From positions 124,001 to 188,000 of the forward strand of contig NZ_CP104205.1 in the NCBI RefSeq assembly GCF_025244665.1: 64,000 nucleotides of DNA, read 5' to 3'. Source of the stretch: Maribacter litopenaei (GTDB lineage: Bacteria > Bacteroidota > Bacteroidia > Flavobacteriales > Flavobacteriaceae). Under the pieces are notes generated by a model, which had not been told where the DNA came from, searched no databases, and saw only the letters and a program-made list of their open reading frames with translations. Of the stretch, positions 13,138-62,540 are shown piece by piece. How positions within the stretch are numbered: position 1 is the stretch's first letter; each line of letters begins with the position of its first letter. The position numbers and the translations under genes are program-made.

Positions 13138-15548
13138 ATGAGGAATAGCCCGCACTTCATTTTATATACCATATTTTTAATGGTAGGTATGGCAAGTGCC
13201 CGGACCAGGGAACTATCCTTTCAAATCATGGATGGGGCTTCTAAAACTCCCTTGGTCAATACTGAAATATCCATTTCCCCTTGTGGTTGCGGAGGTATAT
13301 CCGATGACCGGGGGAGGTTTTCAATCGAACTTCCCGAGGCCGATTATCGTATTACAATTGCATATTTAGGTTTTGGTACGGAAGTGAGGGAGGTCCAACT
13401 GAACAAGGATACATTTCTCGGAAATAGAACTTTCAGAAAAGCAGGAAGCCCTCTCCGAGGTTATACTTAGAGCAAAACGTAATAATGATATCCTTACATT
13501 GCCACAAATGGGCGTAGTCAGGGTATCTTCCGAGAGAACTAAAAATGATTCCCTCGGCAGCGGGAGAAGTAGATCTGCTCCGCGCCATGGTCCTTCTTCC
13601 GGGAGTAAACAACGCAGGGGAGCTCAGTAACGGTCTTTCGGTCCGTGGAGGTTCTTTGGACCAAAACCTTGTCCTTTTGGATGATGCCCCCATATTCAAC
13701 CCTACCCACTTGTTCGGGCTATTCTCAATTTTTACACCTGATGCAATTGCATCTTCGGACCTTTACAGGGCTAACATTCCATCCCGATACGGCGGGAGGG
13801 CAACGTCGGTACTTGATGTAAAGGTAAAGAATCCCTATGTGGACAAGTTAAGACTAAGTGGGGGGATAGGTCTTGTTTCAAGTAGATTGAACATTGAGAC
13901 ACCTATTATCAAGGATAAATTAATGCTTTTGGCAGGGGGAAGAGCAGGAGTGACGGATTTTCTTTTACCCATCTTTTCGGAGCGTCTTAAGAATACAAAA
14001 GCACGATTTTATGACGGAACCATAAAAGTTCTGTACCTGCCCACAGATAAGGACCAGGTAACACTGACAGGTTTTCTTTCCAAAGATTTCTATCAATTGG
14101 ATCTGGTAACACCTATACAGAATATAAATGCGGAAAGCAATCAATATGATTTTAGGATCTTGAACGGCACCTTGAACTGGGCACATAGCTTTAACGACAA
14201 TGCCAATCTAAAAACAGTTTTTGTAGCCGGCAACTATACCCCTAAAATCATATTTCCGGAGCGCGCTAGCGACAACGAGGTCAACTATGAATCTAATATC
14301 CAATACTATAGCTTTCTAACGGAGTATTCCAAAAAGCCAAGTACTACCTTGGACTATTATATCGGGGGTCAGGCCAATAGGTATGGGATCAGTCCGGGCG
14401 ACCTTGACCCGGGCACGGCCGGCAATGTTTTGCCAGTTTCATTGGATAAGGAGACCAGTTATGAATTCGCAGGCTATGGTACTATCAATTGGTCGCCCAA
14501 TGAACATGTTTCATTATCGGGGGGGCTTCGTTTTAACCATTATGTGTTGGTAGGTCCTATACGGAGAACACCTTCGACGATTCCAGCGGTGAATTATTGG
14601 AAGTGGTGGACTATGAAAAAGGAGATCGGGTCAAAGCATATAATGCCCTGGAACCCCGCTTGGGATTTAATCTAAAATTAGGAGACAGAACATCTTTAAA
14701 GGGTAGCTATGCCAGACTGAACCAATATCTTCAGAATATATATAATAGCACATCCCCGGTACCAACTTCCCGGTGGAAGACCTCGAACCCTTTTGTAAGG
14801 CCACAGGTAAGCGATAGCTACGGATTGGGAATTTACAAGAATATAAAGGATACTCGAATGGAGTTAGGTCTCGGAAGCCTATTATCGGGACGTGGCCAAT
14901 GTTTTGACATATAAACCAGGAGCGAATTTCTTTCCGGGAGAAACCATCAATAGGGATTTGGTACAAGGTCAGGGCAAAGCCTATGGGGCCGAATTCAGTT
15001 TTAAAAAACCTGAGGGAAAGGTCAACGGCTGGTTCAACTATGCGTGGTCTAGAAGTAGGTTGCGCTCGGACATTGAGAGACCAGGCGATAGAATCAACAA
15101 CAATGCCTGGTATCCGTCCGATTTTGACCGGACACATGTTCTGAACACTACCATCAACTTCGAATCAGACCCCTATAACACTTGGAGCTTTAATTTTACG
15201 GCCCAAACGGGCAGGCCATACACTGCCGCAAATGGCATCGTGGAAATAGAGGGAATCGAGACCCCTCTTTTTCCGGAGCGCAACAATGCGCGCTTGCCTA
15301 CCTACCATCGCCTTGATTTCTCCTGGAATGTTGTGGGTACGAAAAGGGAAGGAAAAAGATGGAAGGGCGACTGGACATTTACCATTTACAATGTGTACGG
15401 GAGAAAAAATCCATACAGCATTTACTATAACCAAAGAAACGGCACGGAAAACGCAGATGTCTTTCTTAACAGTCCATTGAGGTCCTATGAACTTTCCATA
15501 TTGAACAGTCCTCTTCTATCCCTTACATATAGTTTTGTGTTTCAGTAA
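13138..15548 (+). CDS. TonB-dependent outer membrane receptor, four frameshifts
   Basis: Repaired length is 802 residues. There is a signal peptide, a CarboxypepD_reg-like domain (about residues 24-105), a plug domain (PGVNNAGELSNGLSVRGG, LDDAPIFNP, RYGGRATSVLDV) and a beta-barrel ending in SLTYSFVFQ with a terminal aromatic residue. The frame breaks at 13416-13421 (TCTCGG), 13530-13535 (CCGAGA), about 14558 (one base missing in GGTCCTATACGG) and 14869-14874 (TCTCGG). After repair the reading is continuous. It imports an unknown ligand with the upstream DUF4249 partner. It lacks the N-terminal STN domain that the second receptor of the island has. Confidence 0.88.
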
Positions 15549-15612
15549 TTAGACAATTACCTTTTAGTTTTAGTAAATTGATACAAAAACCTACTTTCAA
15601 GTCCATCTAAAC

Positions 15613-16818: not shown

Positions 16819-16823
16819 ACGTT

Positions 16824-25837: not shown

Positions 25838-26956
25838 TTAGTATGCCATATCCATTATGGATGTTCCCTGACTAGGTACAGTCACAAAATAGGAAAGATT
25901 TATACCAAACTTCTCTTTATAGGCTTTTGAAGCCTTTTCAACAAATTCCTCAATACCGTCTTCATGAATAAGGTTTAAGGTACAACCACCAAAACCACCG
26001 CCCATCATTCTTGCTCCTAATACAGAGGGATCATTTTCTGCAATCTCCACCGGAAAATCCAGTTCGGGCAACTCACTGCATACTTTTTACGAAGCCCATC
26101 ATGTGTTTGTGCCATTAGCTTGCCGAATTTTTCCAATTTCCTTGCTTTTAAGGCTTTCACTGCATCTTGTACCCGCTGTATTTCCTCTATGACATACGAA
26201 CATCGGTTGTACAATAGAGCGCCTAATTCGTTCCTGGATTTGTCGAGCATTTGTGGTGTAACATTTCGGAAAGATTTTTCAATTCCAAATCTTTTGGATA
26301 GAATTTCCGAGACCATCCTCGCACTGTGCTCTGCGAATATTGTATTCTCCGGTGGACAGGTTATGGGAAACATTGGTGTTTAGCAGTAATAACTTATATG
26401 GGTCTATTTTGGTGGGGATGTATTCAAAATCTAATGAACGGCAATCCAATAGCATGGTATGCCCTTTTTTCCCCATCACAGAGGAAAACTTATCCATAAT
26501 ACCACATTTTGTCCCCACAAAATTATGTTCTGCACGTTGCCCCAATTTCACCAATTCCCATTTGTCAAATCCCAAATCGAACAGCTCGTTAAGTCCGAAG
26601 GACAGCCCACATTCCAAGGCTGCAGACGAACTTACCCCCGATCCTACCGGGATTTGACTTTCCATGTGGCAATCGAATCCTCTCAGTTTTGGGCTTAATT
26701 TCTGTATTTCGTAAAGTACTCCCAATACATAGTTATGCCATCCTTCTGTGCCTTTTTCAAGTTTATTTAGATTTGCCACCAATATACTGTCAAACCCTTG
26801 GCTTTTAATTGTACAACGGCTTTCATGGCCATTCACCGAAAACACCATATAGATACACTTATCTATGGCAGCGGGTAACACAAAACCATCATTATAATCA
26901 ATATGTTCTCCAATAAGGTTGATTCTGCCAGGAGAGGCAACTTTTATTTTCTTCAT
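25838..26956 (-). CDS. galK: Galactokinase, two frameshifts
   Basis: Repaired length is 372 residues. The GHMP kinase order is visible: SPGRINLIGEHIDYNDGF (the galactokinase signature), the ATP-binding PVGSGVSSSAALECGL, and near the C-terminus GARMMGGGFGGCTLNLI. The frame breaks at 26307-26312 (sense TCTCGG in GATGGTCTCGGAAATT) and 26062-26068 (GTTCGGG, one base missing; repair gives VSCPELDFPVE). It phosphorylates galactose at C1. It stands alone here, with no galT or galM next to it, just outside the right end of the tRNA-Asn island. Confidence 0.92.
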
Positions 26957-29986: not shown

Positions 29987-31504
29987 ATGAAGAATAATGT
30001 AGATAGGCTTATTCACGAAAAGATCCAAAGGGAGCTAGAGGCTAAGACCGAGACGACATTTTATCAAACAATGTGCGACAGGAATGGGGGGTCTTGCCCT
30101 AGGTTCTATTTTCCTGGGATGCGATCCTTTACATCAACCGAAAAAACAATCGAAACTCACCTCCGGTTTTACCGAGCGTGATTTGAATCCTTTGGCGACA
30201 TTGCCCGCTCCATTTTCACCCAGTGTTAAGAATGTGATTTATCTGCACATGGCCGGGGCGCCTTCCCAATTGGAGATGTTCGACTATAAACCGGAACTAG
30301 CCGGACTTAACAATCAGGAATGTCCACAATCCCTTCGGAAGGAAAGAAATTTGCCTTTATACGCGGGGTTCCAAAATTACTGGATGCACAGGCAACCTTT
30401 AAACAAGAAGGAGAATCCGGGAATTGGGTGTCCGATAATTTGCCCCATTTTAAAAAGGTGGTTGACGAAGTTGCTTTTTTGAAGGCCGTACACACTGATC
30501 AATTCAACCATGATCCGGCACAGCTGTTCATGCATACCGGGAGTCCGAGATTGGGCCGTCCTAGTATCGGTTCTTGGGTGACCTATGGTCTCGGTTCCGA
30601 AAATCAAAATCTTCCTGGTTTTGTCGTACTTACTTCAGGGGGGAAAGCCCCAAGTGCGGGGAAGAGTGTTTGGGGTAGCGGTTTTTTGCCATCGGTATAT
30701 CAAGGAGTACAGTGTCGATCAAAAGGTGATCCTGTACTCTATATTGAAGATCCGGACGGGATTTCGCGCGATTTAAAAAGGAATACCATTAAAGCCATCA
30801 ACGAAATCAACAAGAAGGAATATGCTAAATATGCCGATCCAGTAAATTTTGGCAAGGATAAATCAGTATGAAATGGCCTATAGGATGCAGATTGCCGTGC
30901 CGGAGGTAATGAACATCAACAATGAACCGGAATATATTAAGGAGATGTATGGTGTGGAGCCTGGCAAGGAGTCCTTTGCGAACAATTGTCTTTTGGCCGA
31001 AAGTTGGTGGAGGACGGCGTACGTTTTGTGCAATTGTTTGACTGGGGATGGGATGCCCATGGTACCGATCCTAGTACCGCAGTCGACTTAGGATTAAAGA
31101 ATAAATGTAGGGAGATCGATAGACCTATGACTGCCTTGTTGTTGGATTTAAAGCAACGAGGGCTTCTAGAGGACACACTCGTTGTTTGGGGTGGTGAGTT
31201 CGGCCGAACGCCTATGCAGGAAAATAGGGAAGGCAAAACTATGGGCTTTAAAGGCAGAGACCATCATGGGGATGCCTTTACCATGTGGATGGCCGGTGGT
31301 GGAATCAAGAAGGGAGCATCCCATGGACAAACAGATGAAATTGGTTTTTCAGGAATAGATGGAAGGGTGTCGGTACACGATGTCCACGCCACTATTTTGC
31401 ATTTGTTGGGCTTTGACCATGAGCAGTTTACTTTTGATTTTCAAGGGAGGCCCTTTCGGTTAACGGATGTTGAAGGAGAAGTAATCCATCAAATTCTTGC
31501 TTGA
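29987..31504 (+). CDS. DUF1501 family protein, four frameshifts
   Basis: Repaired length is 505 residues. The N-terminus carries a twin-arginine-like signal ([19 protein letters not shown]) ending in a possible lipobox (FLGC). The DUF1501 body follows ([47 protein letters not shown]). The frame breaks at 30048-30053 (CCGAGA), 30334-30338 (TTCGG for TTCTGG), about 30842 (extra T) and about 30997 (missing C in GGCCGAAAG). DUF1501 proteins resemble the sulfatase/alkaline phosphatase fold and are almost always paired with a DUF1549/DUF1553 protein, as here. Substrate unknown. Confidence 0.85.
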
Positions 31505-34006: not shown

Positions 34007-35411
34007 ATGGTGAAAACCAACTTTATTACAGATACCTTTTTATTACATAATACATTTGCGGAGGAACTTTACCACAATTATGCGGCATCCATGCCCATCA
34101 TCGATTACCATTGTCACCTTCCTCCAGCAGAGATCGCCAAGGATCACCAGTTTGAAAACTTGACCAAAATCTGGATTGATGGAGATCATTATAAGTGGAG
34201 GGCCATGCGTACGTTTGGTATCGACGAAAAATACATTACGGGAATCGCACCGGATCGAGAGAAGTTTCAGAAGTGGGCCCAAACGGTTCCCTATACACTC
34301 AGAAATCCACTATATCATTGGACACATTTAGAGTTGAAGCGGTATTTTGGTATCGATGACCTTCTAAACGAAGGAAGTGCCAACGAGATTTATGACGAGG
34401 TCACCAATAAATTACACAGACCGGAATTTAGTTGCCAAAATCTGATAAAGAATATGAATGTGGAGGTGGTATGTACGACGGAAGACCCTATCGACAGTTT
34501 GCACCATCATGCAAAACTGGCCAAGAGTGATTTTTCGGTTAAGGTGAGCACGGCGTTTCGTCCGGATAAGTCCATCTTGATTGGAAAAAATGAGTATCTC
34601 GGATTATTTGGAAAAATTGTCCGAAGTAAGTGGGGTTACCATAGATTCTTTTAAGTCACTATGCGATGCCCTTTCCCTACGATTGGATTATTTTGAGACA
34701 AACGGATGTACCTTATCAGATCATGGTTTAAGCTATCTTCCTTTTAGGGCATTTACGGATCAGGAAGTTGAAGGAATTTTCCAAAAAAGAAGGGAGGGTA
34801 AGTCCCTGGCTATTGAAGATGAAGAGAAATTCCGAGACCGCTTTATTGTTGTTCTTATGTGAACAATATCATAGGCGTAATTGGGTTCAACAGTTTCATC
34901 TCGGGGCCTTACGTAATAACAACTCGCGAATGAACCGTTTATTGGGCCCGGACACAGGTTGGGATTCCATTGGGGATTATAAGCAAGCTGAAAGTCTTTC
35001 AGGGTTCTTGAATACCTTGGATGAGCGAGATACCCTTGCGAAAACTATTTTATACAATCTCAATCCCTCTGATAACGAGGTGCTGGCGACCATGATCGGG
35101 AACTTCAATGATGGCCGTGTCAAAGGGAAAATGCAATTCGGTTCCGGGTGGTGGTTCTTGGACCAAAAAGATGGAATGACCAAACAGTTGAACGCGCTTT
35201 CCAATATGGGATTGATCAGTTGTTTTATAGGAATGCTCACAGATTCCGAAGTTTTTTGTCCTATCCCGGACATGAATATTTTAGAAGAGTGCTTTGCAAC
35301 CTTTTTGGCCAGGAAATGCAAAACGGCGAAATTCCCCAGGATTTGGGATTGGTAGGAGGCATTGTTCAGGATATCTGTTACAGGAACGCCAAGGAATATT
35401 TCAATTTTTAA
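34007..35411 (+). CDS. uxaC: Glucuronate isomerase (uronate isomerase), three frameshifts
   Basis: Repaired length is 467 residues. The amidohydrolase-like metal site HCH is in [16 protein letters not shown] (about residue 30), followed by the family stretch [10 protein letters not shown]. Later motifs are [28 protein letters not shown] and the C-terminal [11 protein letters not shown]...[15 protein letters not shown]. The frame breaks at 34597-34602 (TCTCGG), 34832-34837 (CCGAGA) and about 35246 (TTCCGAAG, one C missing; repair gives TDSRSFLSYP). It isomerises D-glucuronate to fructuronate and galacturonate to tagaturonate, and is the first gene of the hexuronate locus. Confidence 0.93.
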
Positions 35412-37279: not shown

Positions 37280-38258
37280 ATGAAATCATTTAAGGTATTT
37301 ATTCGTCTGTTCACTGCACTTTTGGTGTTAGGATGCTCCGAGGTAAATACCGTAAAAACCTTACGTTTGGGACATGGACTCGATGTCAGTCATTCTGTTC
37401 ACAAGGCTATGGTGGCCATGGGAGAGGATTTGGCGGAACGTTCCGGGGGTAAACTTAAACTAGAGATTTATCCCAGCCAACAATTGGGTACAGAAAGGGA
37501 ATGTCTCGGAACTATTGCAAATAGGGAGTTTGGATATGACCAAAGTATCCGTAGGGGTACTGGAAAATTTTGCTCCTAAAATGAAAGTGTTGGGTTTGCC
37601 ATTTCTTTTTAGGGATAGGGAACATTCCTTCACCGTATTGGATGGACCTATTGGCAAAATGTTGTTGAACGATGGTGAAAAATACTGGTTAAAGGGACTT
37701 GGCTATTATGATGCGGGTAGCCGTAGTTTTTATACCATGAACAAGCCTATATTAAAACCCTCGGATTTGGAAGGGGAAAAAATAAGGGTAATGGAAAGTG
37801 CTACAGCCGTAAATATGGTGAAGGCATTGGGCGGGTCACCAACTCCAATTTCATGGGGTGAGCTTTATACTTCATTACAACAAGGGGTGGTAGATGGCGC
37901 TGAAAACAATCCTCCCAGTTTTTATCTGTCTCGGCATTACGAGGTTTGTAAATACTATACCTTGGATGAACATACCGTATTGCCGGATGCCCTTTTAATA
38001 GGGACTTATGCTTGGAACAAGCTTTCTGATGAAGAGCAGGAATGGTTGAACGCCTCCGTGGAAAAATCCATAAAATATCAAAGAAAATTGTGGGCAGAAG
38101 CAGAGGCCGAAGCCCTACGGGAAGTTGAAAAAGCAGGCGTGGAAATAATTCGACCGGACAAGGCCCCTTTTGTAGAAAAGGTAGAAGCAATATTTGAAAG
38201 CTATAAGGATGATGAAGAAATATACCCCTTAATTAAGCGGATACAAGAAACCAACTAA
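37280..38258 (+). CDS. TRAP transporter substrate-binding protein DctP, one frameshift
   Basis: Repaired length is 325 residues. It is a lipoprotein signal sequence (LLVLGC) followed by a DctP-type periplasmic binding domain (LRLGHGLDVSHSVHKAM, KLEIYPSQQLGTEREC, GVVDGAENNPPSFYLSRHYEV). The frame breaks at 37505-37510 (TCTCGG); removing a G gives ECLELLQIGSLDMTK. It binds the substrate for the DctQM permease that follows. With uxaC/B/A on both sides, the substrate is most likely galacturonate or glucuronate (inference). Confidence 0.92.
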
Positions 38259-38720: not shown

Positions 38721-40017
38721 TGGAACACATCCCAATTCTGATTCTGGTCATCAGCTTTATCTGTTTATTATCCATAGGTACACCAGTGGCTTGGAGTATA
38801 GCTATATCCTCCTTGTTGACGATGTTGGTCAGTATTCCTGTAATGCCAGCTTTAACCACCGTTTCCCAACGTATGGCTACAGGTCTCGGACAGTTTTGCC
38901 TTGTTGGCCATCCCATTCTTTATTTTATCGGGAGAGCTTATGAACAAAGGGGGTATTGCGCACCGACTCATAGCATTTGCGAAGACCTTGGTGGGTTCCC
39001 TACCCGGTGGCTTGGCATTGATCAATGTAATTGCCGCCATGCTCATGGGCGCCATTGCGGGTTCGGCCATGGCATCCGCTTCTGCAATGGGCAGTATTTT
39101 AGATCCGGAGATGGAAAAGGAAGGATACTCAAAGGAATTTGGAGCCGCTGTAAATATTACCTCTTCTACTACGGGCTTGGTCATACCCCCGAGCAACGTA
39201 CTAATTGTATATTCCTTGGCCAGTGGGGGTGCCTCCATTGCAGCCTTATTTTTGGCGGGTTATATTCCTGGGATATTAACGGGTCTTTTTCTTATGATTG
39301 TCGCCTTGGTGTGGGCAAAGAAGAAGAACTATAAGGTAGGTAAACGAAGTAGCTTTAAGCAAGTGGTGAAAACGTTTGTGGATGCCCTGCCCAGTTTGTT
39401 CATGCTGGTCGTAGTTATTGGGGGCATCGTAACGGGTGTCTTTACGGCTACGGAAGCATCCGCTATTGCGGTATTGTATAGTCTCGGTTCTTGGGTTTAT
39501 CTATAAGGAAATAAATGTTGCCACTTTACCACAGATACTGCTCAATTCATCGGCCACTACTGCAATTGTGATGTTGCTTATTGGTGCGTCCATGTGCATG
39601 TCTTGGGCGCTTTCCTACGAAAATATACCCCAGGATATCAGTACGGGCCTGCTAAGTCTAAGCGACAACAAAATTGTCATCTTGTTGATTATCAATTTGA
39701 TTTTACTATTTGTGGGGATTTTTATGGATATGACCCCGGCAGTTTTGATATTCACACCTATATTTTTGCCAATCGTTACCAAATTGGGATTGGATCCTGT
39801 GCATTTTGGAATCATTATGGTGCTCAATCTATGTATAGGCCTTTGTACCCCTCCAGTCGGTTCGGTGTTATTTGTGGGCGTAGGTGTGGCCAAAACGACC
39901 ATCGAAAAGGTATTTAAGCCCCTACTTCCCTTATTTGTGGCCATGATCATTGCCCTGTTCTTGGTAACTTACATTCCTGAATTGAGCTTGTGGTTGCCAA
40001 GCTTGTTCGATTTATAA
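38717..40017 (+). CDS. TRAP transporter large permease DctM, two frameshifts
   Basis: Repaired length is 432 residues, a large permease of about 12 membrane segments (ILSGELMNKGGIAHRLIAF, INVIAAMLMGAIAGSAMASA, CTPPVGSVLFVGVGVAK). The frame breaks at 38884-38889 (TCTCGG; repair gives LDSFALLAIPFFIL) and 39482-39487 (TCTCGG; repair gives YSLVLGFIYKEI). Uses a sodium or proton gradient to import the acid captured by DctP. Start overlaps dctQ. Confidence 0.92.
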
Positions 40018-40037: not shown

Positions 40038-41484
40038 ATGCAAAATCTTGACAGAGGTAGCTTAATACGTTCACATACCTTACCTATAAAAGTGGTACAG
40101 TTCGGAGAGGGTAATTTTTTGAGAGCCTTTGTGGATTATGCCATTAAAGTATTGAACGACTCCGTAGGGTTCAATGCCGGGGTAGCGGTGGTGCAACCCA
40201 TTGAAAATGGAATGGTGGCCTTGTTAAATGAACAGGACGGTTTGTATACCTTGTTCACCAAAGGTATTAAGCAAGGCGAGGAAGTTCAGGAGAAGATACT
40301 GATCGATACCATTGTCAAGGGTGTCAACACATACGATGATTTTGAGGAATTTCTCGGAATTGGCACAGGAGCGGGAACTTGAGTATGTGATTTCCAATAC
40401 TACCGAAGCTGGAATTCGGTATGATGGGAATGACCAGTTGGAAATGTCCCCGCCTAATTCATTTCCAGGGAAGCTAACACGTTTTTTATTAGAGCGATTT
40501 CAATATTTCGATGGAAGTACGGACTTTGGGCTGACCATCATTCCTTGTGAACTGATCAATTACAACGCCGACACCTTGAAAACAGTTATTCTGAAGTATA
40601 TCGATCTTTGGAAGCTTTCGGAGGAATTTAAAAACTGGGTCTTGAATGCCTGCACATTTCACAACACTTTGGTGGATAGGATTGTGCCAGGGTATCCAAA
40701 GGATACTATTGAAGAATACAATTCTCAATTGGAGTATCAAGACCAACTTATTGTAAGTGCGGAGACCTTTTTTCTATGGGTTATTGAAGGGGATGATAAT
40801 CTGAAGAAAAAGCTTCCATTTCATAAAACTTCCTTGGATGTCCGAATCGTGGAAGATATGCAACCATTTAGGACAAGAAAGGTCAGGATATTGAATGGGG
40901 CCCATACCGCCATGGTACCTTTCTCATTATTATATGGTAATGAAACCGTGAAGGAAACCGTGGACGATGGGTTTACGGGGCACTTCATTGAATCCTTAAT
41001 TTTAGAGGAAGTAGTGCCAACCCTGGATATGGATCAAAAAGAATTGGAAAGTTTTGCCAAGGATGTTTTTGATCGTTTTAGAAATCCGTTTATAAAACAT
41101 CAATTGTCCAGTATCGCCCTTAATTCTATTTCTAAATTCAAGGTTCGTGTGCTGCCAAGTCTATTGCGTTACATTGAATTGTATCAAAAAATGCCGCTGA
41201 AAATCGTCTTTTCCTTTGCTTGTCTCATCCGTTTTTATCAAGGCCGTTGGAAAGGAAAGGACGTGCCTTTAAACGATGATGATGCCATTATCAAAACGTT
41301 CAAAAACCTTTGGCAGCTTCCCGCAGAAGACATGGTAAAAGAACTATTGGGAAATACCGCCTTACGGGATACAGATTTAAATCAATTGCACGGGCTTCCG
41401 GCAGCTATCGAAAAGGCTTTGGGGCTTTTAGAAACCGACGGTGTAAAAGAGGGGTACGAAAAATTTGAGGAAAGCTACAAATAA
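40038..41484 (+). CDS. uxaB: Tagaturonate reductase, one frameshift
   Basis: Repaired length is 481 residues of the mannitol dehydrogenase family. N-terminal dinucleotide-binding segment VVQFGEGNFLRAFVDYAI; later RILNGAHTAMVPFSLLYG carries the catalytic Lys/His region typical of the family. The frame breaks at 40352-40357 (TCTCGG; repair gives EEFLELAQERELEYV). Reduces tagaturonate to altronate with NADH, between UxaC and UxaA. Confidence 0.92.
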
Positions 41485-41490
41485 AGAAGT

Positions 41491-43105
41491 ATGAAACAAC
41501 GGTTAATAAAGGTACATGAAGCCGATAATGTTGGTATAGCTTTGGAAGATATATCCGCCGGGGAGATTGTTCGCTTTGAAAATCAGGACATAGAACTGTT
41601 GAACCGTACAAAAGCCAAACATAAGATTGCCTTAAAAGAGTTATTGGTAGGTGAAAGTATAATCATGTACGGGGTACTGGTAGGTACTGCAACCGCACCT
41701 ATCGGTAAAGGTGGGCTTTTAACTATCGAAAACGTCAAGCATCAAAGTGAAGGAGTACAGGGACGAACAGAAAGGTATACATGGAACCCTCCCGATATTT
41801 CCAAATGGAAGGACAGGACCTTCATGGGCTATCACCGACCGGACGGACAAGTGGGTACTAAAAATGTATGGCTGTTCTTCCCCTTGGTATTCTGTGAAAA
41901 TAGAAATATAGAGATTTTGAAGGATGCTTTTGAGAAGGAATTTGGTCTTGGTGAAATAAGCAAGCAACGACTATTATTAAGACGCCTTATTGAAGGAAAG
42001 GGCCCAAAGGGTGAAGAGGATTTTACCATGGGTCAAAGGCCCTTTGAAAATGTAGAGGTTAAATTTATTACCCATCAAGGGGGCTGTGGTGGTATTCGTC
42101 AAGATTCTGAAATGTTGGCCAAATTATTGGCGGGCTATGTTAAAAATCCCAATGTAGCGGGAGCTACGGTATTAAGTTTGGGTTGTCAAAACCTTCAGAT
42201 AAACCTTTTAAAGGATGCCTTACACGGGATTGACCCCAACCTTGAAAAACCGGTTTTGATCTACGAACAGCAACAGTTGGGCACCGTCGAAGATATGTTG
42301 AATACCATCATCTTGGAATCTTTTGAGGGTATCAAAGAAGCGAATAGAATTGAAAGAAAACCGGCGCCACTTTACAATCTAAAATTAGGATTGGAATGTG
42401 GCGGTTCCGATGGCTTCTCGGGAATTTCCGCCAATCCTGCGCTGGGATATGCTTCGGATATTTTGGCCACAGTGGGCGGGTCACCCATACTTTCTGAATT
42501 TCCGGAGCTGTGCGGGGTTGAGCAGGAACTTGTAAACAGATGTGTTAGGGATGAAGATGTAGAACGGTTTATAAAATTGATGAAGGCCTATGAGAATTCG
42601 GCAGAACGGGTAGGTTCTCGGTTTTGATATGAACCCTTCACCGGGAAATATCAAGGACGGATTGATAACCGATGCTATGAAGTCGGCAGGAGCGGCAAAA
42701 AAAGGAGGCACTTCCCCGATTCAGTCCGTTTTGGATTACGGAGAGTACGTGACACGTCCCGGTCTCAATTTACTATGCACGCCTGGAAACGATGTGGAAA
42801 GCACTACAGGAATGGTGGGATCTGGTGCCAATGTAGTCGTCTTCACGACCGGTTTGGGAACCCCTACGGGAAACCCGATCGCACCCGTAATCAAAGTGTC
42901 CTCCAATACGGAATTGGCCCAAAAAATGCCCGATATTATAGATATGGATACAGGAGCCGTAATTAGGGGGGAGAAATCCATTAAAGAAATGGGAGAAGAA
43001 CTATTGGAGTATCTTATCAAAGTTGCTAGCGGAGAGGTTTTGTCCAAGGCTGATATCTTGGGTCAAGACGATTTTATCCCTTGGAAACGGGGCGTGTCCC
43101 TTTAA
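41491..43105 (+). CDS. uxaA: Altronate dehydratase, one frameshift
   Basis: Repaired length is 537 residues with an N-terminal SAF-like domain and C-terminal dehydratase domain: [62 protein letters not shown] and [13 protein letters not shown] carry the conserved cysteines. The frame breaks at 42616-42621 (TCTCGG; removing a G restores [12 protein letters not shown]). Dehydrates altronate to 2-keto-3-deoxygluconate, which KdgK and KdgA process further. Confidence 0.93.
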
Positions 43106-45523: not shown

Positions 45524-46571
45524 ATGCACATTTCTACCATGTTTAAACCTGTAAAGAACGGTCAGATCTTAAAGATTTCACTGCTTTTAGCATTGTTGAT
45601 ATCGCTTCCTCGGTCTATTTTTCTATACAATATGTTTTCCGATGGGGACATTGAACTTTCCAGGGATTTATTTATTGATTTCCTAGGGCGTTATTTGTTT
45701 TTTGTAGTTTTTTCCTGGATAATGCTACAATTGAACACCAATGCCGTGTATCTCTACTTCAAGGGCCCCTCAACGTTACGTGTTATCATGTTGATGCTTG
45801 CGGATATTATTATCCTAATCGTATTTCTGAATCTTTTCAATTATTTATTCCCGTTCATTACAGGTGAGGAAGTAGATGAAAGGTCTCGCGGCTTCAACAA
45901 TTTTAACTATACGGTGTTAATGGTAGTACTCTTTTTTATTGCCAGGGTTTTACGATTGCAGACAGATCAGCAGGAAAGTAAATTAGAGAATGAACGTTTA
46001 AAGCAGCAAAACCTACAGAACGAATTGGCTGCATTAAAAAATCAGATCGACCCTCATTTTTTATTCAATTCCCTAAACTCACTTACTTCTTTGATCCGGG
46101 ATAACAAACCCGCCACTCAATTCGTGAACAAGCTTTCCCATATGTATAGGTATATCTTACAAAGTGGGGACTCTAATTTGGTAACCGTAAGGGAAGAGTT
46201 GAAATATTTGGAGAGTTATGCCTATTTGATTGAAACCAGATATAGAGATCGATTTAAACTGAATATCGAAATCGACGAATCCTGTCTCGGACGAAAAGGT
46301 ACCCCCGTTGGCTTTACAGTTGCTAGTAGAAAATGCGGTAAAGCATAATGAAATATCTGCTTCCCATCCTCTTAAAGTGGACATCATACAAAGGAACGGG
46401 TCTATTTTTGTGGAGAATGTGATCCGACCTAGGACCAATTTGGCAGATGGGACAAAAAACGGGTTGATAAACTTAAAAAAGCGCTATGCCCTGCTTTTAA
46501 AACAAGAGTTGGTTATCCGACGGGATAATGATATTTTTAGTGTAGAGCTACCTTTAACAAAAGAGGCATGA
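45524..46571 (+). CDS. LytS/YehU-type sensor histidine kinase, one frameshift
   Basis: Repaired length is 348 residues. Four membrane segments (about 15-145), then a coiled segment and the His_kinase box DPHFLFNSLNSLTSLIRDN with the phospho-acceptor His, and an HATPase N-box (PPLALQLLVENAVKHNE). The frame breaks at 46285-46290 (TCTCGG; repair gives CLDEKVPPLALQLL). Its last codons overlap the regulator start by four bases (ATGA), so the pair is coupled. No extracellular sensor domain is present, so the signal is probably membrane-borne. Confidence 0.9.
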
Positions 46572-48801: not shown

Positions 48802-50943
48802 GAGGGACGTTCAACATATTAGTATTAAAGAAGCTAAGATTGAAAAGCTTTCATCTTCATCACCGACTGAAAATTTTCTGACCGCCGAAGGAATTTCTTT
48901 AAAAAGGGCGTATTCAAAAGAAGATTTGGAGGAGGTGGAGCATATGGATTTCCCGGCGGGAATACCTCCTTTTTTAAGAGGCCCCTATGCTACCATGTAT
49001 GTTCAAAAACCATGGATCATCAGGCAATATGCAGGGTTTTCTACGGCCGAGGAAAGCAACGCATTTTATAGAAGAAACCTGGAGGCAGGACAAAAAGGCT
49101 TGTCGGTGGCCTTTGACCTTCCCACCCACCGAGGGTATGATAGTGATCACGAACGGGTCATGGGCGATGTTGGAAAGGCTGGGGTAGCCATCGATTCGGT
49201 GGAGGATATGAAGGTTTTGTTCGATGGCATTCCCTTGGATAAAATGTCGGTTTCCATGACTATGAACGGTGCCGTGATTCCCATTATGGCATTTTATATT
49301 GTGGCAGCCGAGGAGCAGGGCGTGTGTAAGGAGGAATTGGCGGGAACCATCCAAAACGATATCCTAAAGGAATTCATGGTTCGTAATACCTATATCTATC
49401 CTCCAGGTCCTTCCATGCGATTGGTGGCCGATATATTTGAATACACCAGCCAATACATGCCCAAATTCAACAGTATAAGTATTTACGGGTACCATATGCA
49501 CGAGGCGGGAGCCCCTGCCCATATGGAATTGGCCTACACACTGGCAGATGGCTTGGAGTACATTCGTACAGGTCTCGGAGGCTGGTCTTAAAATTGACGA
49601 TTTTGCACCAAGGCTTTCCTTTTTCGGGGGATTGGCATGAACCACTTTATGGAAATTGCCAAGTTAAGGGCCGGTCGCATGTTATGGGCTAAATTGGTAA
49701 AGAAGTTCAGCCCACAAAATATAAAGTCACTGATGTTACGGATCCATTGCCAAACCAGTGGTTGGAGTTTAACGGAGCAGGATCCTTTTAATAATGTGGC
49801 CCGGATCCACAATAGAGGCCATGGCTGCGGTATTTGGTGGAACTCAAAGTCTACATACCAATGCCTTGGATGAGGCGATTGCCCTACCTACCGATTTTTC
49901 CGCACGGATTGCTCGGGAAACCCAATTATTTCTCCAAGAGGAAACAAAAATCACTAGGGTGGTGGATCCTTGGGGAGGTAGTTATTATGTGGAGACACTC
50001 ACGCATGAATTGGCACAAAGGGCTTGGGCCCTTATAGAAGAAGTGGAGGAACTCGGAGGAATGACAAAGGCCATTGAGGCAGGAATCCCAAAAATGCGCA
50101 TTGAGGAAGCAGCGGCTAAAAAACAGGCCCGATTGGATAGTGGAACCGATGTACTGGTAGGGGTAAATAAATATCGATTGGCACAAGAAGATGAGCTGAG
50201 TATTTTGGAAGTGGATAATGAGAAGGTTCGGACGCAACAAATGACCCGACTTAAAAAATTGAAAGACCAGCGCTATGAAGGGGAAGTACAAGAAATTTTG
50301 ACACGTATAACCCTCACCGCAAAAGATTCCCTTGAAGAAAACAAACAGCGCGATAATTTGCTAGCTTTAGCAGTAGAAGCTGCCAGGGCTAGGGCGACGT
50401 TAGGTGAAATCAGTACGGCACTTGAGAAGGCCTATGGCAGGCACACGGCAAAAACAAATACGATTACAGGAGTGTATTCCAAGGAAATCAAGCAAGACGA
50501 TAGTTTTAAAAAGGCAGTCAAGTTAGCGGATCCAACTAGCGGAACAAGAAGGTCGTAGGCCGCGAATTATGGTGGCGAAAATGGGTCAGGATGGACATGA
50601 CCGTGGAGCCAAGGTGGTGGCTACCGCGTATGCCGATTTAGGGTTTGATGTAGATATAGGACCTTTGTTTCAAACACCGGGCGAGGTCGCTAAGCAGGCT
50701 ATAGAAAACGATGTGCATATTACGGGCATTTCCTCTTTGACGGCGGGGCATAAAACATTGGTGCCTAAAGTTATAGAAGAACTTAAATCCTATGGTAGGG
50801 AGGATATATTTGTAGTTGTTGGGGGTGTAATTCCAAAACAGGACTATGCATTCTTAAAGGAAAAAGGAGTTACCGCCATTTATGGGCCGGGAACTAAAAT
50901 TAGTGAAGCCGCCATAGAGGTTTTAGAAATGTTACTTCACTGA
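48794..50943 (+). CDS. mutB: Methylmalonyl-CoA mutase large subunit, four frameshifts
   Basis: Repaired length is 715 residues. The catalytic barrel carries [35 protein letters not shown] and [18 protein letters not shown]; the C-terminal B12 domain has [22 protein letters not shown], with the base-off His of DGHDRG. The frame breaks at 49573-49578 ([16 protein letters not shown]), 49623-49627 (TTCGG for TTCTGG; the conserved Trp of FFWGIGMNHF), 49803-49808 and 50528-50533 (both GGATCC with an extra C). All repairs restore known motifs. It ends before a terminator shared with the convergent MFS gene. Confidence 0.93.
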
Positions 50944-51008: not shown

Positions 51009-52251
51009 TTAGGCAGTAGCGACTTCTTTCGATTTTTTGCCCTTCATCCGGAAGTATAACAAAGTGAATAGTACAATTAGTATGATTGGGAACATCATCA
51101 TAGTTCCTATCGTAGCCTGTCCGGCTACCATTTCCAATTCATCACCCATTAAACCTTGCTCTGCTGCCATTTTCTGATCTGCATCGATCCACCCTCCAAT
51201 AATAGGCTGAAAAATGGAAGAAGAAAACATTCCTACGGCACCAACGATTGACAATCCTAGAGCGCCACTTTTAGGGATTTTATCAGCTACGAAACCTAAC
51301 ATGTTCGGCGAGAAATAAGCAATTCCCAAAGCAAAGAAAATAGCAGCTACGTAGGCCATAGTTCCTGTTTGCGAGCTGAAAAGATATAGTCCTATAGTGG
51401 CCAATACGGCAGATCCCAACAATACCCCGGTTTGGTCAAATTGTTTTACCATATCACCACCAAAATATCGAGCGATGGCCATCAAACCTGAGGTTAATGC
51501 CAAAATTAACATAGGATGTGCACCACTTTTTGCGAGTATCAAGCCTACCCATTGGTTTGGACTAAATTCGGTAATGGCTGTCAATGCCATACAAATAATC
51601 ATAAAAATAAACAGTGGCGTCAACATGGCCTTTAGGTTACCTGAAAGGGTTGCCGCTTCCTCTACCTTGGCTTTTGGCCAATCTTGTCCAAAGAATAAAA
51701 AGGCATAGATAACCGCGGGAATCAATAGCAACCAAACTTGACTTTGGCCTAAGATGCCCATGTTGGTCATCAGTCCGGAAAGCAAACTTCCAATGGCGAT
51801 ACCCCCTGGGAACCACATGTGGAACCTATTCAACATTTTACTCATTCTAGTACCTTGATAGGCATCCGCAATCATTGGGTTGCAAGCGGCTTCCGTACAT
51901 CCGTTTCCTAATCCAATGAGCAAGTTGGCAACCAATAGCAAGCCATAGCTTCCGAGAGAAAATAAGAAGCAAAATACCAACGGTATGCGCAAAAAAGGCA
52001 AATTGCATGATGGCTTTTCCTCCTACCTTATGATAAATAAGACCACCAATAACCATGGAAATTGGGAAACCCAAAAACCACATGGAAGAAATAAGACCTG
52101 CTTCACCGGCGGTTAGTTCCAGTTCTGTTTTTAATTGATCCAAAATACCCGCCGCGATTGCAAAGGAAAACGCGGTAGTAATCAAAGCGAAACAACTGGC
52201 ATAGAACAGTCTGTTTGCATTTACGTTTGAAGTTGCTGTTGAACTCGTCAT
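51009..52251 (-). CDS. Sugar MFS transporter (FucP-like), one frameshift
   Basis: Repaired length is 413 residues with about 12 membrane segments (SMWFLGFPISMVIGGLIYHK, GNGCTEAACNPMIADAYQG, FFALGIAYFSPNMLGFVADK). The frame breaks at 51952-51957 (sense TCTCGG); removing one G gives IFSRSYGLLLV. The family includes fucose/sugar:H+ symporters. It is divergent from the RidA/esterase/lactonase/FAH/SDR gene set across a 238-bp gap, so it probably imports that pathway's sugar or sugar acid. Confidence 0.85.
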
Positions 52252-53896: not shown

Positions 53897-54768
53897 ATGG
53901 AAATAGCAACGGTATATCCGCATAAAAGCGAATTGGGAGAGGGTCCTTTTGGGATGCACAGAAAAATGCCATTTGTTGGGTGGATATTCTAAATGGGCAT
54001 ATTCACGAATATGTTGTAGATGCGGATTCGTACAAACGATATGACACTCAAAAAATGGTTGGATGTGTTAGGATATGCAAGGATTGGAATTTTATTCGGC
54101 CACCACGGAAGGTATAGGGTTTTTGAATAGGGAATCGGGAGCGATAACCTATGTGCACCATCCTGAAAAGGGAATAACCGGAAATAGGTTCAACGATGGC
54201 ACATGTGACCCCGCTGGGAGGTTTTGGATCGGCAGTATGGCGCTTTCAGAGGAAACGGGAGCAGGTTCGGTCTATATGTTCGAGAAGGGGAAAAGTAGCA
54301 AAAAAATTGACCATACGACCATTTCCAATGGATTGGCATGGAACGCAGATCATACGCTCCTATATTTTATAGACACGCCTACAAAATCAGTGGTCGCTTA
54401 TGATTATCAACTTGAGAATGGTGCTATATCCAATGGCCGGACGGTAATTTCAATAGATGAAACAGAGGGATTTCCGAGACGGGATGACCATCGATTCTGA
54501 GGGTATGCTCTGGATTGCCCACTGGGGCGGATGGCAAGTGACCCGTTGGAACCCGGAAACTGGGGAATTATTGGCCCGAATTAAATTGCCGGTAGCGAAA
54601 ATCACCTCGTGTACCTTTGGAGGAAAAGATTTAAAGGATTTGTATGTGACCTCAGCAAAAGTTGATTTGACCGAAGAAGAATTAAAGGAGCAACCATTGG
54701 CAGGGTCCTTATTTGTAATACGAAACACCGGGTATCAAGGTGTACCGGGATTTTTATATAAGAACTAA
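53897..54768 (+). CDS. SMP-30/gluconolactonase-like lactonase, three frameshifts
   Basis: Repaired length is 290 residues. The family motif SELGEGPFWDAQKNAICWVD at the N-terminus carries the metal-binding Glu; later NRFNDGTCDPAGRFWIGSM, SNGLAWNADHTLLYFIDT and DGMTIDSEGMLWIAHWGG follow. The frame breaks at 53947-53950 (TTTT for TTTTT), about 54071 (GG for GGG) and 54474-54479 (CCGAGA). It hydrolyses a sugar lactone and probably feeds the FAH/SDR enzymes downstream. Confidence 0.9.
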
Positions 54769-54778: not shown

Positions 54779-55624
54779 ATGAAACTAATACGATTTGGAA
54801 AGCAAGGAGCGGAGAAACCGGGCATGTTGGATAAACAGGGAAAAAGAAGGGATCTTTCCATTGAATTTTCAGACTGGAATCGTTCTTTTTTTCAAAATGG
54901 GGGACTTGAGAAACTTCGTGGGCTGAATCCTGAAAAGTATCCGAGAGGTAGATGCCAAGGAACGTCTAGGCTCCTGTGTTTCACGTCCTGGTAAGGTAAT
55001 TTGTATTGGATTGAATTACTCGGACCATGCTGCCGAATCCGGTATGGCCATTCCCGACGAGCCCATCATTTTTCAAAAAGGAGCAAATACAGTGGTTGGG
55101 CCCAACGATGACATCCTGATCCCAAGAAACAGCCAAAAAACAGATTGGGAAGTGGAACTTGGCATTGTCATCGGGAAGGACGCTAGGTATCTGAATTCCA
55201 TTGAGGATGCCAAAGAGTATATTGCGGGCTATTGTATTTCCCATGATGTATCTGAAAGGGCTTTTCAATTGGAAAAGGGTGGGCAGTGGACAAAGGGCAA
55301 GTCCTGTGACAACTTTAATCCCTTGGATTATTTTTGGCCACCCAGGATGAAATTGATGATGTACATAATCTAAAAATGAAGCTTTGGGTCAATGGGGATA
55401 AAATGCAGGATGGAAATACCAATACCATGATTTTTGATTGTTATTATGTGGTACATTACCTATCACAATTCATGACGTTGGAGGCAGGCGATTTGATTTC
55501 CACTGGAACACCCCCGGGAGTAGGTTTAGGAATGAAACCACCCGGATATCTTAAGGCCCGTGATACCGTGGTGTTGGAAATAGAACAGTTAGGTCGTCAA
55601 GAGCAAGTATGCCGAAACGCTTAA
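54779..55624 (+). CDS. FAH family hydrolase, two frameshifts
   Basis: Repaired length is 281 residues. N-terminal arm MKLIRFGKQGAEKPGMLDKQG, then the FAH core CIGLNYSDHAAESGM, PEPIIF-like stretch DEPIIFQKGANTVVGP, and the metal ligands DWEVELGIVIGKDAR and YCISHDVSERAFQ. The frame breaks at 54941-54946 (CCGAGA) and about 55325 (GG for GGG; repair gives PLGLFLATQDE). Likely cleaves a diketo or deoxyketo sugar acid, e.g. 2,4-diketo-3-deoxy-L-fuconate in the non-phosphorylated fucose route (inference). Confidence 0.9.
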
Positions 55625-57810: not shown

Positions 57811-57879
57811 TCCCTTTGGAATTTACTTAGTGATGTAATTTCAAAATTTCATTAGAACGTACCTGAGTTATGAAACTTC

Positions 57880-57897: not shown

Positions 57898-57920
57898 CTA
57901 TCCATTGAACTACGAGGCCA
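57898..57920 (-). repeat. Fragment of tRNA-Arg 5' end
   Basis: 23 bp identical to 57486-57508: the 5' acceptor and D-arm of tRNA-Arg. The neighbouring bases GAAACTT also echo the anticodon arm, but the palindrome interrupts the copy. Confidence 0.8.
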
Positions 57921-57973
57921 AATAGGCTGGCAAAAATAGGGTTTTTTGTGAATTGTATGCAATAAGTATTATA

Positions 57974-58690: not shown

Positions 58691-59163
58691 GATTTAATAG
58701 TCCATCTAATAATTTAAAATATTGAATATAAGTAGTTTGTAAAATTAAAACAACCTAAAAAAGCACTCTATTGATGTTTTTTTAACCCTTGAACGTATTT
58801 TAATTCAAAACCGTTGTTTTTTCATTTTTTTTGTTTTCATTTGTGCCCTAAAATAAGAGGAAAACTCTATTTAAGGCCCTGGCCTTTAGCTGAACATAAT
58901 GCAATTTGTTTCTATGTTCGGATTTTTGGGAATTAGGAAGTCAAACCCAAAAATAGCTTATAAGATAAGCAGCCGAATTTTAAAGCTAACTTCCGATTTT
59001 AACCCCTCGATCGTGCAAAGTCAGCACATCTACTTCTTTATTCCTACCACACAGAAACAAATTCTTGTTTGATTAGAAAATACATTATGTTTTCTTAACA
59101 TGAAAACAGCATTAATTTTTAAATATTAAAGCGTATTTTCAATCATCAAATACAATATCTTAC
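58691..59163. other. 473-bp intergenic region upstream of speA
   Basis: No gene is seen. It contains a 9-bp perfect hairpin ATTTTTGGG (58922-58930) / CCCAAAAAT (58946-58954) with a 15-base loop but no T-tract, so it is not a typical terminator. A clear TTG-N19-TAnnTTTG promoter was not found. The length suggests a long leader or divergent promoters. Confidence 0.45.
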
Positions 59164-60625
59164 ATGAATACTAAATATATTGATCTAATAGATCAAACCT
59201 ATTTTTTTCCCCAAGAGGAATTTACCCTTGAAGGAGACCACTTAAAATTTCACAACATCCCTCTGAACGACTTGGTAGAGGAGTACGGCAGCCCTTTGAA
59301 ATTTACCTATTTACCTAAGATTTCAGAGAATATTGCACGGGCCAAGAACTGGTTTGTGAACGCCATAAAAAAGAACGACTATAAGGGCAAGTACCATTAT
59401 TGCTATTGCACCAAGAGCTCACACTTTCAGCATGTTATGCATGAGGCACTGAAAAATGATATTCACATGGAAACTTCTTCCGCTTTTGATATCAACATTG
59501 TGGAACAGTTGAAGAAGGACGGAAAGTTGAGGGATGATGCCTATGTTATCTGTAACGGTTTTAAAAGGGAACAGTATATTGAGAATATTGCACGATTGAT
59601 CAATAACGGACATGATAACTGTATCCCCATAATTGACAACTATGAAGAAATAGACTTGTTATCGGATAGCATCAAGAACACCTTTAAGGTAGGTATCCGT
59701 ATTGCTTCGGAAGAAGAGCCAAAATTTGAATTTTATACTTCGAGATTGGGTATCGGGTATAAAAACATTGTCCCCTTTTACGAAAACCAGATCAAGGATA
59801 ACGATAAGGTTGAACTTAAGATGTTGCACTTTTTCATCAATACCGGTATTCGCGATAATGCCTATTACTGGAACGAATTGGTAAAATGTCTTAAAGTGTA
59901 CGTGCGACTTAAAAAGATCTGCCCTTCTCTCGGACAGTTTGAACATTGGTGGCGGTTTTCCCATTAAGAACTCCTTGGCCTTTGAATACGACTACCAGTA
60001 CATGGTGGAAGAAATCCTAAACCAGATCAATATTGCCTGTGCGGAGGCAGAGGTGCCTGTTCCCAATATATTTACAGAGTTTGGAAGCTTTACCGTAGGA
60101 GAAAGTGGCGGGGCCATTTATGAGATTCTTTATCAGAAACAACAAAACGACCGGGAGAAATGGAATATGATAGATTCCTCCTTCATTACCACCTTGCCGG
60201 ATACATGGGCCATCAACAAGCGCTTTATCATGTTACCCATTAACCGTTGGAACGATGAGTATGAAAGGGTTCTTTTGGGAGGGTTGACCTGTGATAGCGA
60301 CGACTATTATAACAGTGAACAGAACATGAACGCCATTTATCTGCCCAAGTACAAGCGTGATAAACCTTTGTACATAGGATTCTTTAACACAGGTGCCTAT
60401 CAGGAAACCATTGGTGGTTTTGGTGGCTTGCAACATTGCCTTATTCCCCAACCCAAGCACATCCTAATAGATAGGAATGATAAGGGAGAATTGATAACTA
60501 CATTATATAGTCCACAACAGACCGCCGAAGATCTTTTGGAGATTTTAGGGTATGGGGACTATCAAAAAGAAAAAAGAAAAAATCGGCGAAGGCCAAGAAA
60601 CAACTATCAAATTAATTTGTTCTAA
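59164..60625 (+). CDS. speA: Biosynthetic arginine decarboxylase, one frameshift
   Basis: Repaired length is 486 residues, a PLP enzyme of the alanine-racemase fold. The PLP Lys is in YHYCYCTKSSHFQHV; GGGFPIKN, TEFGSFTVGESGG and the C-terminal TCDSDDYYN (active-site Cys and Asp) fit. The frame breaks at 59928-59933 (TCTCGG; repair gives CPSLDSLNIGGGFP). The last 20 codons (KEKRKNRRRPRNNYQ) are basic and may hide another homopolymer slip, since an alternative frame gives a Lys/Ala-rich tail and an earlier stop. Makes agmatine. Confidence 0.92.
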
Positions 60626-60637
60626 TTTTTAAATCAG

Positions 60638-61575
60638 ATGAGTACATCAAAGAATTATGCAGGTATACCTGACAAATTCGCCCAATTGGAAACCGCTAAG
60701 GTTATTTTGATTCCATTCCTTATGAGGGTACCACAACTTGGGGCAAGGGAACGGTGAACGGACCCAAGGCCTTTTTGGAAGCTTCCGAAAATATGGAACG
60801 CTATGATATTGAGACCGATACCGAGGTGTACGAACAAGGTATATACTTGGCGGATGCTATAGAGGGTCATACCTCTCCTGAAGCTATGGTGAGCGCTGTT
60901 CATAAAACTACCAAAGATTATATAAAACGTAATAAGTTTGTAACCTTGGTGGGTGGGGAACATTCCATTTCCATTGGTACCATTCGTGCCTTTAACGAGT
61001 GTTTTGATGACTTAACTGTATTGCATATAGATGCCCATGCTGATGTAAGGGAATCCTACGCGGGTTCAAAATACAATCATGCCTGCGCCCTACATGAGGC
61101 AAGCCAAACCACCAATTTGGTTCAGGTAGGCATACGTTCTATGGATGCCATTGAAAAAACGATCATTGATGAGGAAAAGACCTTTTTCGCCCACGAAATG
61201 GTGGCCGATGAATATTGGATGGATAAGGTAATTGAGGCGATGACCGATAATGTTTTCATTACTTTTGACCTAGATGCCTTGGATCCTTCCATCATGCCTT
61301 CCACGGGAACCCCGGAACCCGGTGGTCTATTATGGTATGAGACATTGGAGTTTTTAAAGCAGGTTTTTGAGGAAAAGAATGTGGTTGGTTTTGATTTGAT
61401 GGAGCTTTGCCCAAATCCTTCCGCTAAATCCTCGGATTTTGTGGCCGCAAAGTTGTATTATAAAATGTTGAGTTATAAGTTTATGGGACAGGACGCTGAT
61501 GAGGAGTATGACAACACCTATGACGTGGACTATAAATCGGGTAACAGTTTAAAGTTTAATGATGACGAAGAATAA
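60638..61575 (+). CDS. speB: Agmatinase, one frameshift
   Basis: Repaired length is 312 residues from the ATG at 60638. The arginase-fold metal motifs are GGEHSISIG, LHIDAHADVRESYAG and ITFDLDALDPSIMPSTGTPEPGG. The frame breaks at about 60714 (CCATTCC for CCAATTCC; repair gives LIPIPYEGTTTWGKG). Hydrolyses agmatine to putrescine and urea. It overlaps the next gene by 17 bases. Confidence 0.93.
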
Positions 61576-62540
61576 GGGAGCTATCTCCAATTTTATTGAA
61601 AAATACTATTTACACTTCAACGCCGCAGCCTTGGTGGATGCCGCCAAGGGGTATGAGGAGCAACTGAACAACGGGGCCAAGATGTTGGTCTCCTTGGCGG
61701 GAGCGATGAGTACAGCGGAGTTGGGAAAGATTTTTGCGGAAATGATCCGTCAGGACAAGGTGCAGATCATTTCCTGTACCGGTGCCAATCTTGAGGAGGA
61801 TATCATGAATCTGGTGGCGCATTCACACTATAAACGCGTCCCAAATTATAGGGACCTAACCCCGCAAGAGGAGTGGGATTTGTTGGAAAAGGGTCTAAAC
61901 AGGGTTACGGACACCTGTATTCCGAGAGGAAGAGGCCTTCCGTAGGTTGCAGAAGCATATCTTTAAGATTTGGAAGGATGCAGATGATAAGGGAGAACGC
62001 TACTTGCCACATGAATTTATGTACAAAATGTTGCTTTCGGGTGTGTTGGAAGAATACTATGAAATCGATTTGAAGGATTCATGGATGTATGCGGCTGCGG
62101 AGAAAAACCTACCTATTATTTGCCCAGGTTGGGAGGACAGTACCATGGGGAATATCTTTGCCTCGTATGTGCTAAAAGGGGAGTTGAAAGCCAGCACCAT
62201 GAAATCGGGTATTGAATACATGACCTTTTTGGCGGACTGGTATACCGATAATTCAGAAAACGGTATCGGGTTCTTTCAAATTGGAGGAGGAATCGCGGGC
62301 GATTTCCCAATTTGTGTGATTCCTATGCTATATCAGGATATGGAGCGTACAGATACCCCTTTCTCGAGCTATTTCTGCCAGATCAGTGACAGTACCACCA
62401 GTTATGGTTCCTATTCCGGGGCCGTACCCAATGAAAAGATTACCTGGGGCAAGTTGGATATAGACACCCCAAAATTTATTATAGAAAGTGATGCGACCAT
62501 TGTTGCACCTTTAATTTTTGCTTATCTTTTGGACTATTAA
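61559..62540 (+). CDS. Deoxyhypusine synthase-like protein, one frameshift
   Basis: Repaired length is 326 residues. The family motifs LVSLAGAMSTAELGK, ISCTGANLEEDIMN, WEDSTMGNIFAS and GGGIAGDFPICV are clear. The active-site Lys of DHS (SWGKI in the human enzyme) is kept in ITWGKLDID. The frame breaks at 61922-61927 (CCGAGA; repair gives CIREEEAFRRLQKH). In eukaryotes DHS modifies eIF5A, which bacteria lack. In this speA-speB operon a polyamine product such as homospermidine is more plausible (inference). Confidence 0.88.

Follow-up and report, generated by a model that had tools for sequence, protein, structure and literature searches.

The window analyzed here, 64,000 nucleotides of Maribacter litopenaei (assembly GCF_025244665.1, contig NZ_CP104205.1, positions 124,001 to 188,000), carries protein-coding genes, among them those for a TonB-receptor-type protein, a galactokinase and a mutB-like protein, in which reading frames appear to break at the hexamer TCTCGG or its reverse complement CCGAGA. 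It is part of a single contig of 3,864,532 bases in an assembly with a completeness of 81.68%. The host is one of the Flavobacteriaceae, and a mutB fragment found its best named match, at 78%, in Maribacter. Very probably these apparent gene breaks are mostly sequencing mistakes, and their pattern exposes a chemical mark on another word, the pentamer CCAGA (reverse complement TCTGG).

There are 33 hexamers in the window (23 TCTCGG and 10 CCGAGA), and a first-pass annotation, made from the letters alone, had placed single-base breaks at 19 of them. The hexamer is present at all 19, although the one given as 37505-37510 actually lies at 37504-37509 (window positions are used unless stated otherwise). 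We scored the ±240 nucleotides around each TCTCGG/CCGAGA against the proteins of five relatives of the same genus, both uncut and with one base omitted. Homologues cover 14 of the 19 claimed places, and in every one of these 14 the omission of one base raises the score, by 22% to 94%. Eight of the 14 unclaimed hexamers are covered as well, and since all eight score best with the sequence as given these copies are genuine; no usable homologue exists at the other 11 of the 33 (5 claimed, 6 unclaimed). Read along the coding strand the verified places are TCTCGG in 10 cases and CCGAGA in 4, so that both strands are affected, as had been claimed.

All 14 verified places are +1 scars of the CCAGA type established below. 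Two lie in one gene (34007-35409, called uxaC in the first-pass annotation), at 34597-34602 on the plus and 34832-34837 on the minus strand. Others follow on the plus strand at 37504-37509, 38884-38889, 39482-39487 (same gene as the preceding one), 40352-40357, 42616-42621, 46285-46290, 49573-49578 (in the mutB-like gene) and 59928-59933, and on the minus strand at 51952-51957 (the gene is likewise on the minus strand), 54474-54479, 54941-54946 and 61922-61927. A second method, frameshift-tolerant protein alignment in which shifts at gene edges were set aside and the shifts were read by eye, agrees with the first: TCTCGG/CCGAGA accounts for 14 of the +1 shifts that it returns for the window and GGATCC for the other two (49803-49808 and 50528-50533, strand undefined), the latter being probable scars of a second word, GGACC. 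The shifts at 37504 and 38884 were seen in the tolerant alignment with three relatives; the other verified places and both GGATCC sites belong to a stricter set, comprising clusters of shifts supported by at least two relatives, which contains 20 frameshifts in the window and has the hexamer at 12 of its 14 +1 shifts. Losses of a single base (-1) also occur, with CCAGA-type scars from the stricter set at 35246-35249 (plus), 49624-49627 (minus), 54096-54099 (minus) and 63794-63797 (plus) and probable ones, each found in the tolerant alignment with a single relative only, at 3175-3178 (minus) and 4452-4455 (plus).

The claim of single-base breaks thus stands at 14 places through the proteins of relatives, and at one more, 26307-26312 (minus; CCGAGA on the forward strand), through galactokinase models, which stop in one frame and resume in another beyond the hexamer. 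The remaining four places, without a usable homologue, are consistent with frameshifts but unproven. Three of them fall between pieces of one TonB-receptor-type gene: 13416-13421 (plus), flanked by a carboxypeptidase-regulatory-like piece at 13123-13467 and a plug piece at 13518-14672 that lie in differing frames, 13530-13535 (minus; CCGAGA on the forward strand) and 14869-14874 (plus), with barrel pieces at 13518-14672 and 14537-14911. The fourth, 30048-30053 (minus; CCGAGA on the forward strand), adjoins a DUF1501 piece just upstream of it.

The first-pass annotation had taken the removal of a G, which yields TCTCGA or TCTCGT, as the proper repair, and the intact TCTCGA copies as a sign that the effect is partial. 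Neither survives. Omitting the C instead is equal in 8 of the 14 verified cases and better, by 1 to 3 bits, in the other 6, and it is never worse. TCTCGA itself was rejected as the target, its frequency being normal (two samples of this genome give 8.6 and 10.2 copies per 100 kb, five relatives 8.1 to 14.4); because this word is undepleted its intact copies are uninformative. The word that is missing is CCAGA. In 464 kb of this genome TCTGG/CCAGA is found 144 times, against 606 in 400 kb of five relatives, while the same comparison shows an excess of TCTCGG (223 vs 91) and of TCCGG (1107 vs 654). A sample of 544 kb, free of overlaps, contains 172 CCAGA where 854 are expected (788 to 940 depending on the relative), so that roughly 80% are missing. 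Over the whole genome TTCCAGAA is counted 35 times; in 30 relatives of the genus the counts run from 144, in a 68% complete genome, to 545. The reversed control word of TTCCAGAA is present in a normal number, 334. Read by eye, the ratio of the two, 0.10, is the lowest among 397 genomes of the Flavobacteriaceae, the runner-up having about 0.32. By genome-wide word counts none of the 30 genus relatives has the CCAGA-loss signature, and no second genome with scars of like strength, sought in order to assign the enzyme by co-occurrence, was found among the other 396 of the family.

We also considered whether CCAGA forms part of a longer target, using a 684-kb sample that counts some 26 kb twice, and rejected this: the 16 contexts NCCAGAN form a gradient that follows no rule. 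Fifteen of them are at or below 0.51 of expectation, with CCCAGAC at 2% and the remainder of the fifteen between 3% and 51%. Such a gradient fits better with a reader that takes in several bases at once than with the target of an enzyme.

What became of the missing copies can be followed in a synteny alignment of 164 kb (the window and the following 100 kb) with three relatives that are 76 to 80% identical to it; the placement counts pool the three relatives, and one site may accordingly be counted three times. The relatives' CCAGA is retained here in only 23 of 590 placements, against 10% for CTAGA and 13 to 39% for the rest of eleven sister 5-mers. The commonest outcomes are CCGGA (101) and CCAAA (79), of which the latter is likewise common from sister words, with CCGAGA (24) lower down. 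When the flanks are conserved, 23 of 509 placements are retained and 28 gains and 14 losses of a base are seen, against 0 to 2 gains and 0 to 6 losses for each of seven sister words; TCTGG ranks at the top of all 5-mers for base gains in both comparisons. One lesion gives rise to the TCTCGG breaks as well as to single-base losses and substitutions.

In the same 164 kb one relative or more covers 118,589 coding positions and two cover 101,918; the shifts found there form 99 clusters. Setting aside the 29 that have the backing of a single relative leaves the stricter set of 70, with 45 gains and 25 losses. Gains lie within 9 nucleotides of CCGAGA/TCTCGG in 31 of 45 cases, against 0.9% of 20,000 random covered positions (binomial 4e-53), and losses within 9 nucleotides of CCGA/TCGG in 17 of 25, against 9.5% of random covered positions (2e-12). 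One or the other word is therefore present at 48 of the 70 well-supported frameshifts, and chance is excluded as the source of the association. On a reading of the alignments by eye, further products of CCAGA seem to account for five of the other gains (at joined coordinates 98262, 133095, 134418, 145665 and 154694), while GGACC/GGTCC is the site of four (49807, 50534, 86787 and 133553, likewise joined); the remaining 5 gains and 8 losses are at homopolymers, doubtful or without explanation. Among the 29 clusters with a single relative CCGAGA is found at 8 of 17 gains and CCGA at 7 of 12 losses.

Substitutions leave their trace in codons at conserved residues. A Trp codon that follows TC in the relative is kept in 30 of 47 cases, against 1151 of 1245 after other dinucleotides, and its replacements include CGG (9) and TCG (6). 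Arg AGA is kept in 53 of 84 cases after CC, against 690 of 873 otherwise, Gln in the context C|CAG|A in 42 of 73 (970 of 1231) and Pro in CCA|GA in 95 of 127 (695 of 782). The drop is smaller for two others: T|CTG|G keeps its Leu in 118 of 149 cases (981 of 1125 otherwise) and TCT|GG its Ser in 48 of 69 (578 of 746). Ser and Pro codons for the most part acquire indels. Losses of this kind, governed by the codon's context, are not how protein evolution works. Of 1,096 CCAGA expected in 684 kb, 220 are left; extrapolated to the whole genome, this would mean that about 5,000 sites are corrupted. Likewise, the 53 shifts of the CCAGA type found where coding sequence is covered (about 102-119 kb) point to a genome-wide number of false frameshifts well above a thousand.

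A miscall caused by modification at CCAGA is, in our judgment, highly likely. The DNA of the strain would be modified at CCAGA, the likeliest mark being 5-methylcytosine, and the modified base would distort the signal from its neighbors as native DNA passes the pore. The base-caller may then favor CCGGA (A read as G), CCGAGA (a gain, +1), CCGA (a loss, -1) and rarer products, and the error would be retained in the consensus because most reads err alike. The first-pass annotation, which had proposed a systematic consensus error at a modified short motif on both strands, was very probably right as to the cause but wrong as to the motif, which is CCAGA/TCTGG. That an error-prone or modified TCTCGA/TCTCGT acquires a G is scarcely credible: the +1 breaks do sit at TCTCGG, and omission of G ties with omission of C in eight cases, but the other six favor C, TCTCGA is undepleted, TCTGG is the relatives' leading 5-mer for gains, and the losses and substitutions are left unexplained. 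A real change of the DNA, by which mutation or avoidance of a restriction site removed CCAGA and broke genes, is very improbable as well. CCAGA is scarce in the genome as sequenced, and a restriction system could disfavor its own site, but selection would not bring about tens of frameshifts per 100 kb in core genes nor turn conserved Trp into Arg. Several codon phases are affected, CCGAGA splits two of the defense genes as well (one for a C5 methyltransferase, one for an HsdM), and the family set of 397 contains no other genome that comes close; moreover, a single contig of 3.86 Mb with 81.68% completeness suggests genes that are unreadable, not absent.

The first-pass annotation had further predicted that the strain would possess a methylase or another modification system, and a profile search of the genome did find such genes, all outside the window: three C5 methyltransferases (PF00145) and two type I HsdM genes. 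The closest solved structures to the C5 enzymes are the HhaI and HaeIII methylases, which are uninformative as to the target word. Enzyme (a), at contig positions 1952085-1953626, is a C5 methyltransferase of 514 residues with an N-terminal helix-turn-helix (298 bits with PF00145 and 317 bits with TIGR00675) and is adjoined by an HNH nuclease, beyond which lies an open reading frame without a Pfam match. In 35 other genomes of the genus it has partial matches only, the best reaching 38 to 45% in the catalytic half. Enzyme (b), at 3681891-3683159 (PF00145), belongs to the genus core; the adjacent open reading frames of 205 and 125 residues have no Pfam match, and it has no recognizable nuclease neighbor. 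Enzyme (c), at about 3174912-3176376 (PF00145), has a helix-turn-helix and stands beside an EcoO109I-type nuclease whose PF14511 match scores 160 bits over 109 residues (the pair spans L170:9127-11376, contig about 3174127-3176376). Its frame is split at CCGAGA (L170:10306); in the living strain the enzyme is probably intact. The two HsdM genes, at 2873.6 kb and 3613.5 kb (PF02384/PF07669), each have a specificity subunit, and the former is split at CCGAGA (L167:10508). Its type I system (L167:6798-10992, contig about 2870798-2874992) has HsdM and HsdS frames that switch at CCGAGA/TCTCGG and a Fic-domain protein between them.

By exclusion, and because it shares its strain-specificity with the signature, the sequences point to enzyme (a) as the best candidate for the CCAGA mark, an assignment to which we give an even chance. 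That enzyme (b) marks CCAGA, and that the mark is hidden in the relatives since unmodified copies were used to build or polish their assemblies, is rather unlikely. It is near full length in 33 of the 35 other genus genomes, at 72-88% identity, with a fragment in one more and a weak match in another; the signature is nevertheless in 0 of 30 genus relatives, one-contig assemblies included, and all of these would have to be free of native-read errors. As to its chemistry, the mark on CCAGA is probably 5-methylcytosine rather than another. The alternative, N6-methyladenine placed on the A by an adenine methyltransferase, seems unlikely to a slightly greater degree than the role of enzyme (b). All of the products alter, precede or delete the A, and adenine enzymes of types IIG, IIS and III typically recognize short asymmetric words, but PF01555, PF02086 and PF20473 have zero matches in the genome at the search threshold, with the caveat that a family search may overlook a divergent or shattered gene. 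Two groups of genes were tried as adenine enzymes for short words and rejected. The N6_Mtase genes are both type I HsdM with a specificity subunit, and type I targets are bipartite; the Eco57I matches, at 1965.9 kb and 412.5 kb, turned out to be PrmC and a TrmN-like protein, the latter below the cut-off of the model.

GGACC is a probable, though not proven, second and weaker error word. The count of GGACC/GGTCC is 0.47 of the Markov expectation in this genome and 0.64 in relatives, GGATCC is observed 214 times where 115 are expected from relatives, and GGACC with conserved flanks shows gains in 8 of 418 placements, against none for GGACA and TGACC and one for GGCCC. Three words, GATC, CTAG and GGACC, fall short both here and in the relatives of the genus, so that some of the shortage of GGACC predates the assembly. 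Enzyme (c) may be the source of this mark, as enzyme (a) may be of that on CCAGA, both as parts of restriction-modification systems. The target of EcoO109I is RGGNCCY, and enzyme (c) therefore suits GGACC. Like the EcoO109I-type systems it pairs a C5 methyltransferase having an N-terminal helix-turn-helix with a PF14511 nuclease; unlike RGGNCCY, the GGACC signature does not clearly depend on R and Y flanks and leaves GGCCC unaffected.

Several points weigh against the interpretation put forward here. Native nanopore sequencing, the existence and kind of the modification and the assignment of enzymes to marks are all things that we infer. The CCAGA changes center on the A, which could indicate a modified adenine; 17 of the 70 frameshifts are not accounted for by CCAGA, whether by count or by alignment; one context, ACCAGAT, is retained at 85% in the 684-kb sample; and the scarcity of GGACC in relatives too makes the evidence for a second word weaker. 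The relatives of enzyme (a) add to these doubts. Plasmids of Acinetobacter and Vitreoscilla encode C5 methyltransferases that are 55-56% identical to it, the target-recognition region included (56% over 406 aligned columns), and these relatives accompany LlaJI-type nucleases, while the LlaJI type of system reads a word other than CCAGA. Three plasmids with such a relative show no CCAGA loss, with 24, 47 and 40 copies observed against 24.3, 47.7 and 41.6 expected, their sequencing platform being unchecked. Enzyme (a) is thus like the LlaJI-type systems in its methyltransferase and unlike them in its surroundings, the three plasmid relatives having an AAA ATPase and a LlaJI-family nuclease where here the neighbor is an HNH nuclease. 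On the Acinetobacter schindleri plasmid (L184:14405-17754) a gene for a very short patch repair endonuclease precedes the relative of enzyme (a); such genes often neighbor enzymes that make 5-methylcytosine.

The phenomenon is of a known kind, and the word CCAGA is new for it. In a Klebsiella pneumoniae benchmark Dcm 5-methylcytosine sites reportedly made up about 70% of the consensus errors of then-current nanopore base-callers (Wick 2019, PMC6591954). Neighbors of a methylated base can be miscalled, with only some copies of a motif affected, according to PMC12392509, and strain-specific A/G and C/T ambiguities are described by Lohde 2024 (PMC11610573), whose text does not contain the words 'insertion', 'deletion' or 'frameshift'. 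The errors here resemble those at Dcm CCWGG in that they cluster in or next to a single short word, here a presumably methylated one, affect either strand and depend on the strain; they differ in the word, CCAGA, and in the large share of frame-shifting single-base gains and losses. CCAGA is a reported 5-methylcytosine target in Neisseria meningitidis, confirmed by MspJI cleavage (PMC7046676, PMC7973814), where NEIS0771, like the candidates here, is a cytosine-5 methyltransferase with the same word, in a host from a different phylum. Our search of the literature on CCAGA/TCTGG, outside of which most subscription journals lay, returned reports from Neisseria alone and turned up no link with nanopore errors.

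The genome serves as the representative of its species; its coding sequence has tens of false frameshifts in each 100 kb and its completeness is 81.68%, so that gene losses, pseudogenes and protein variants in it are not to be taken as biology. Since the fault concerns one word and few products, the errors can be flagged and compared with short reads. Going by the hexamer at the breaks, one can mistake the true word, whereas word counts set against those of relatives can bring out a modification motif in a finished assembly. It is about an even question whether the assembly amounts to an unintended methylome map, its corrupted sites recording a CCAGA-specific C5 system, novel to the genus, of a helix-turn-helix-fused enzyme with an HNH nuclease; if so, word counts could reveal modification systems in other public long-read assemblies without recourse to raw data.

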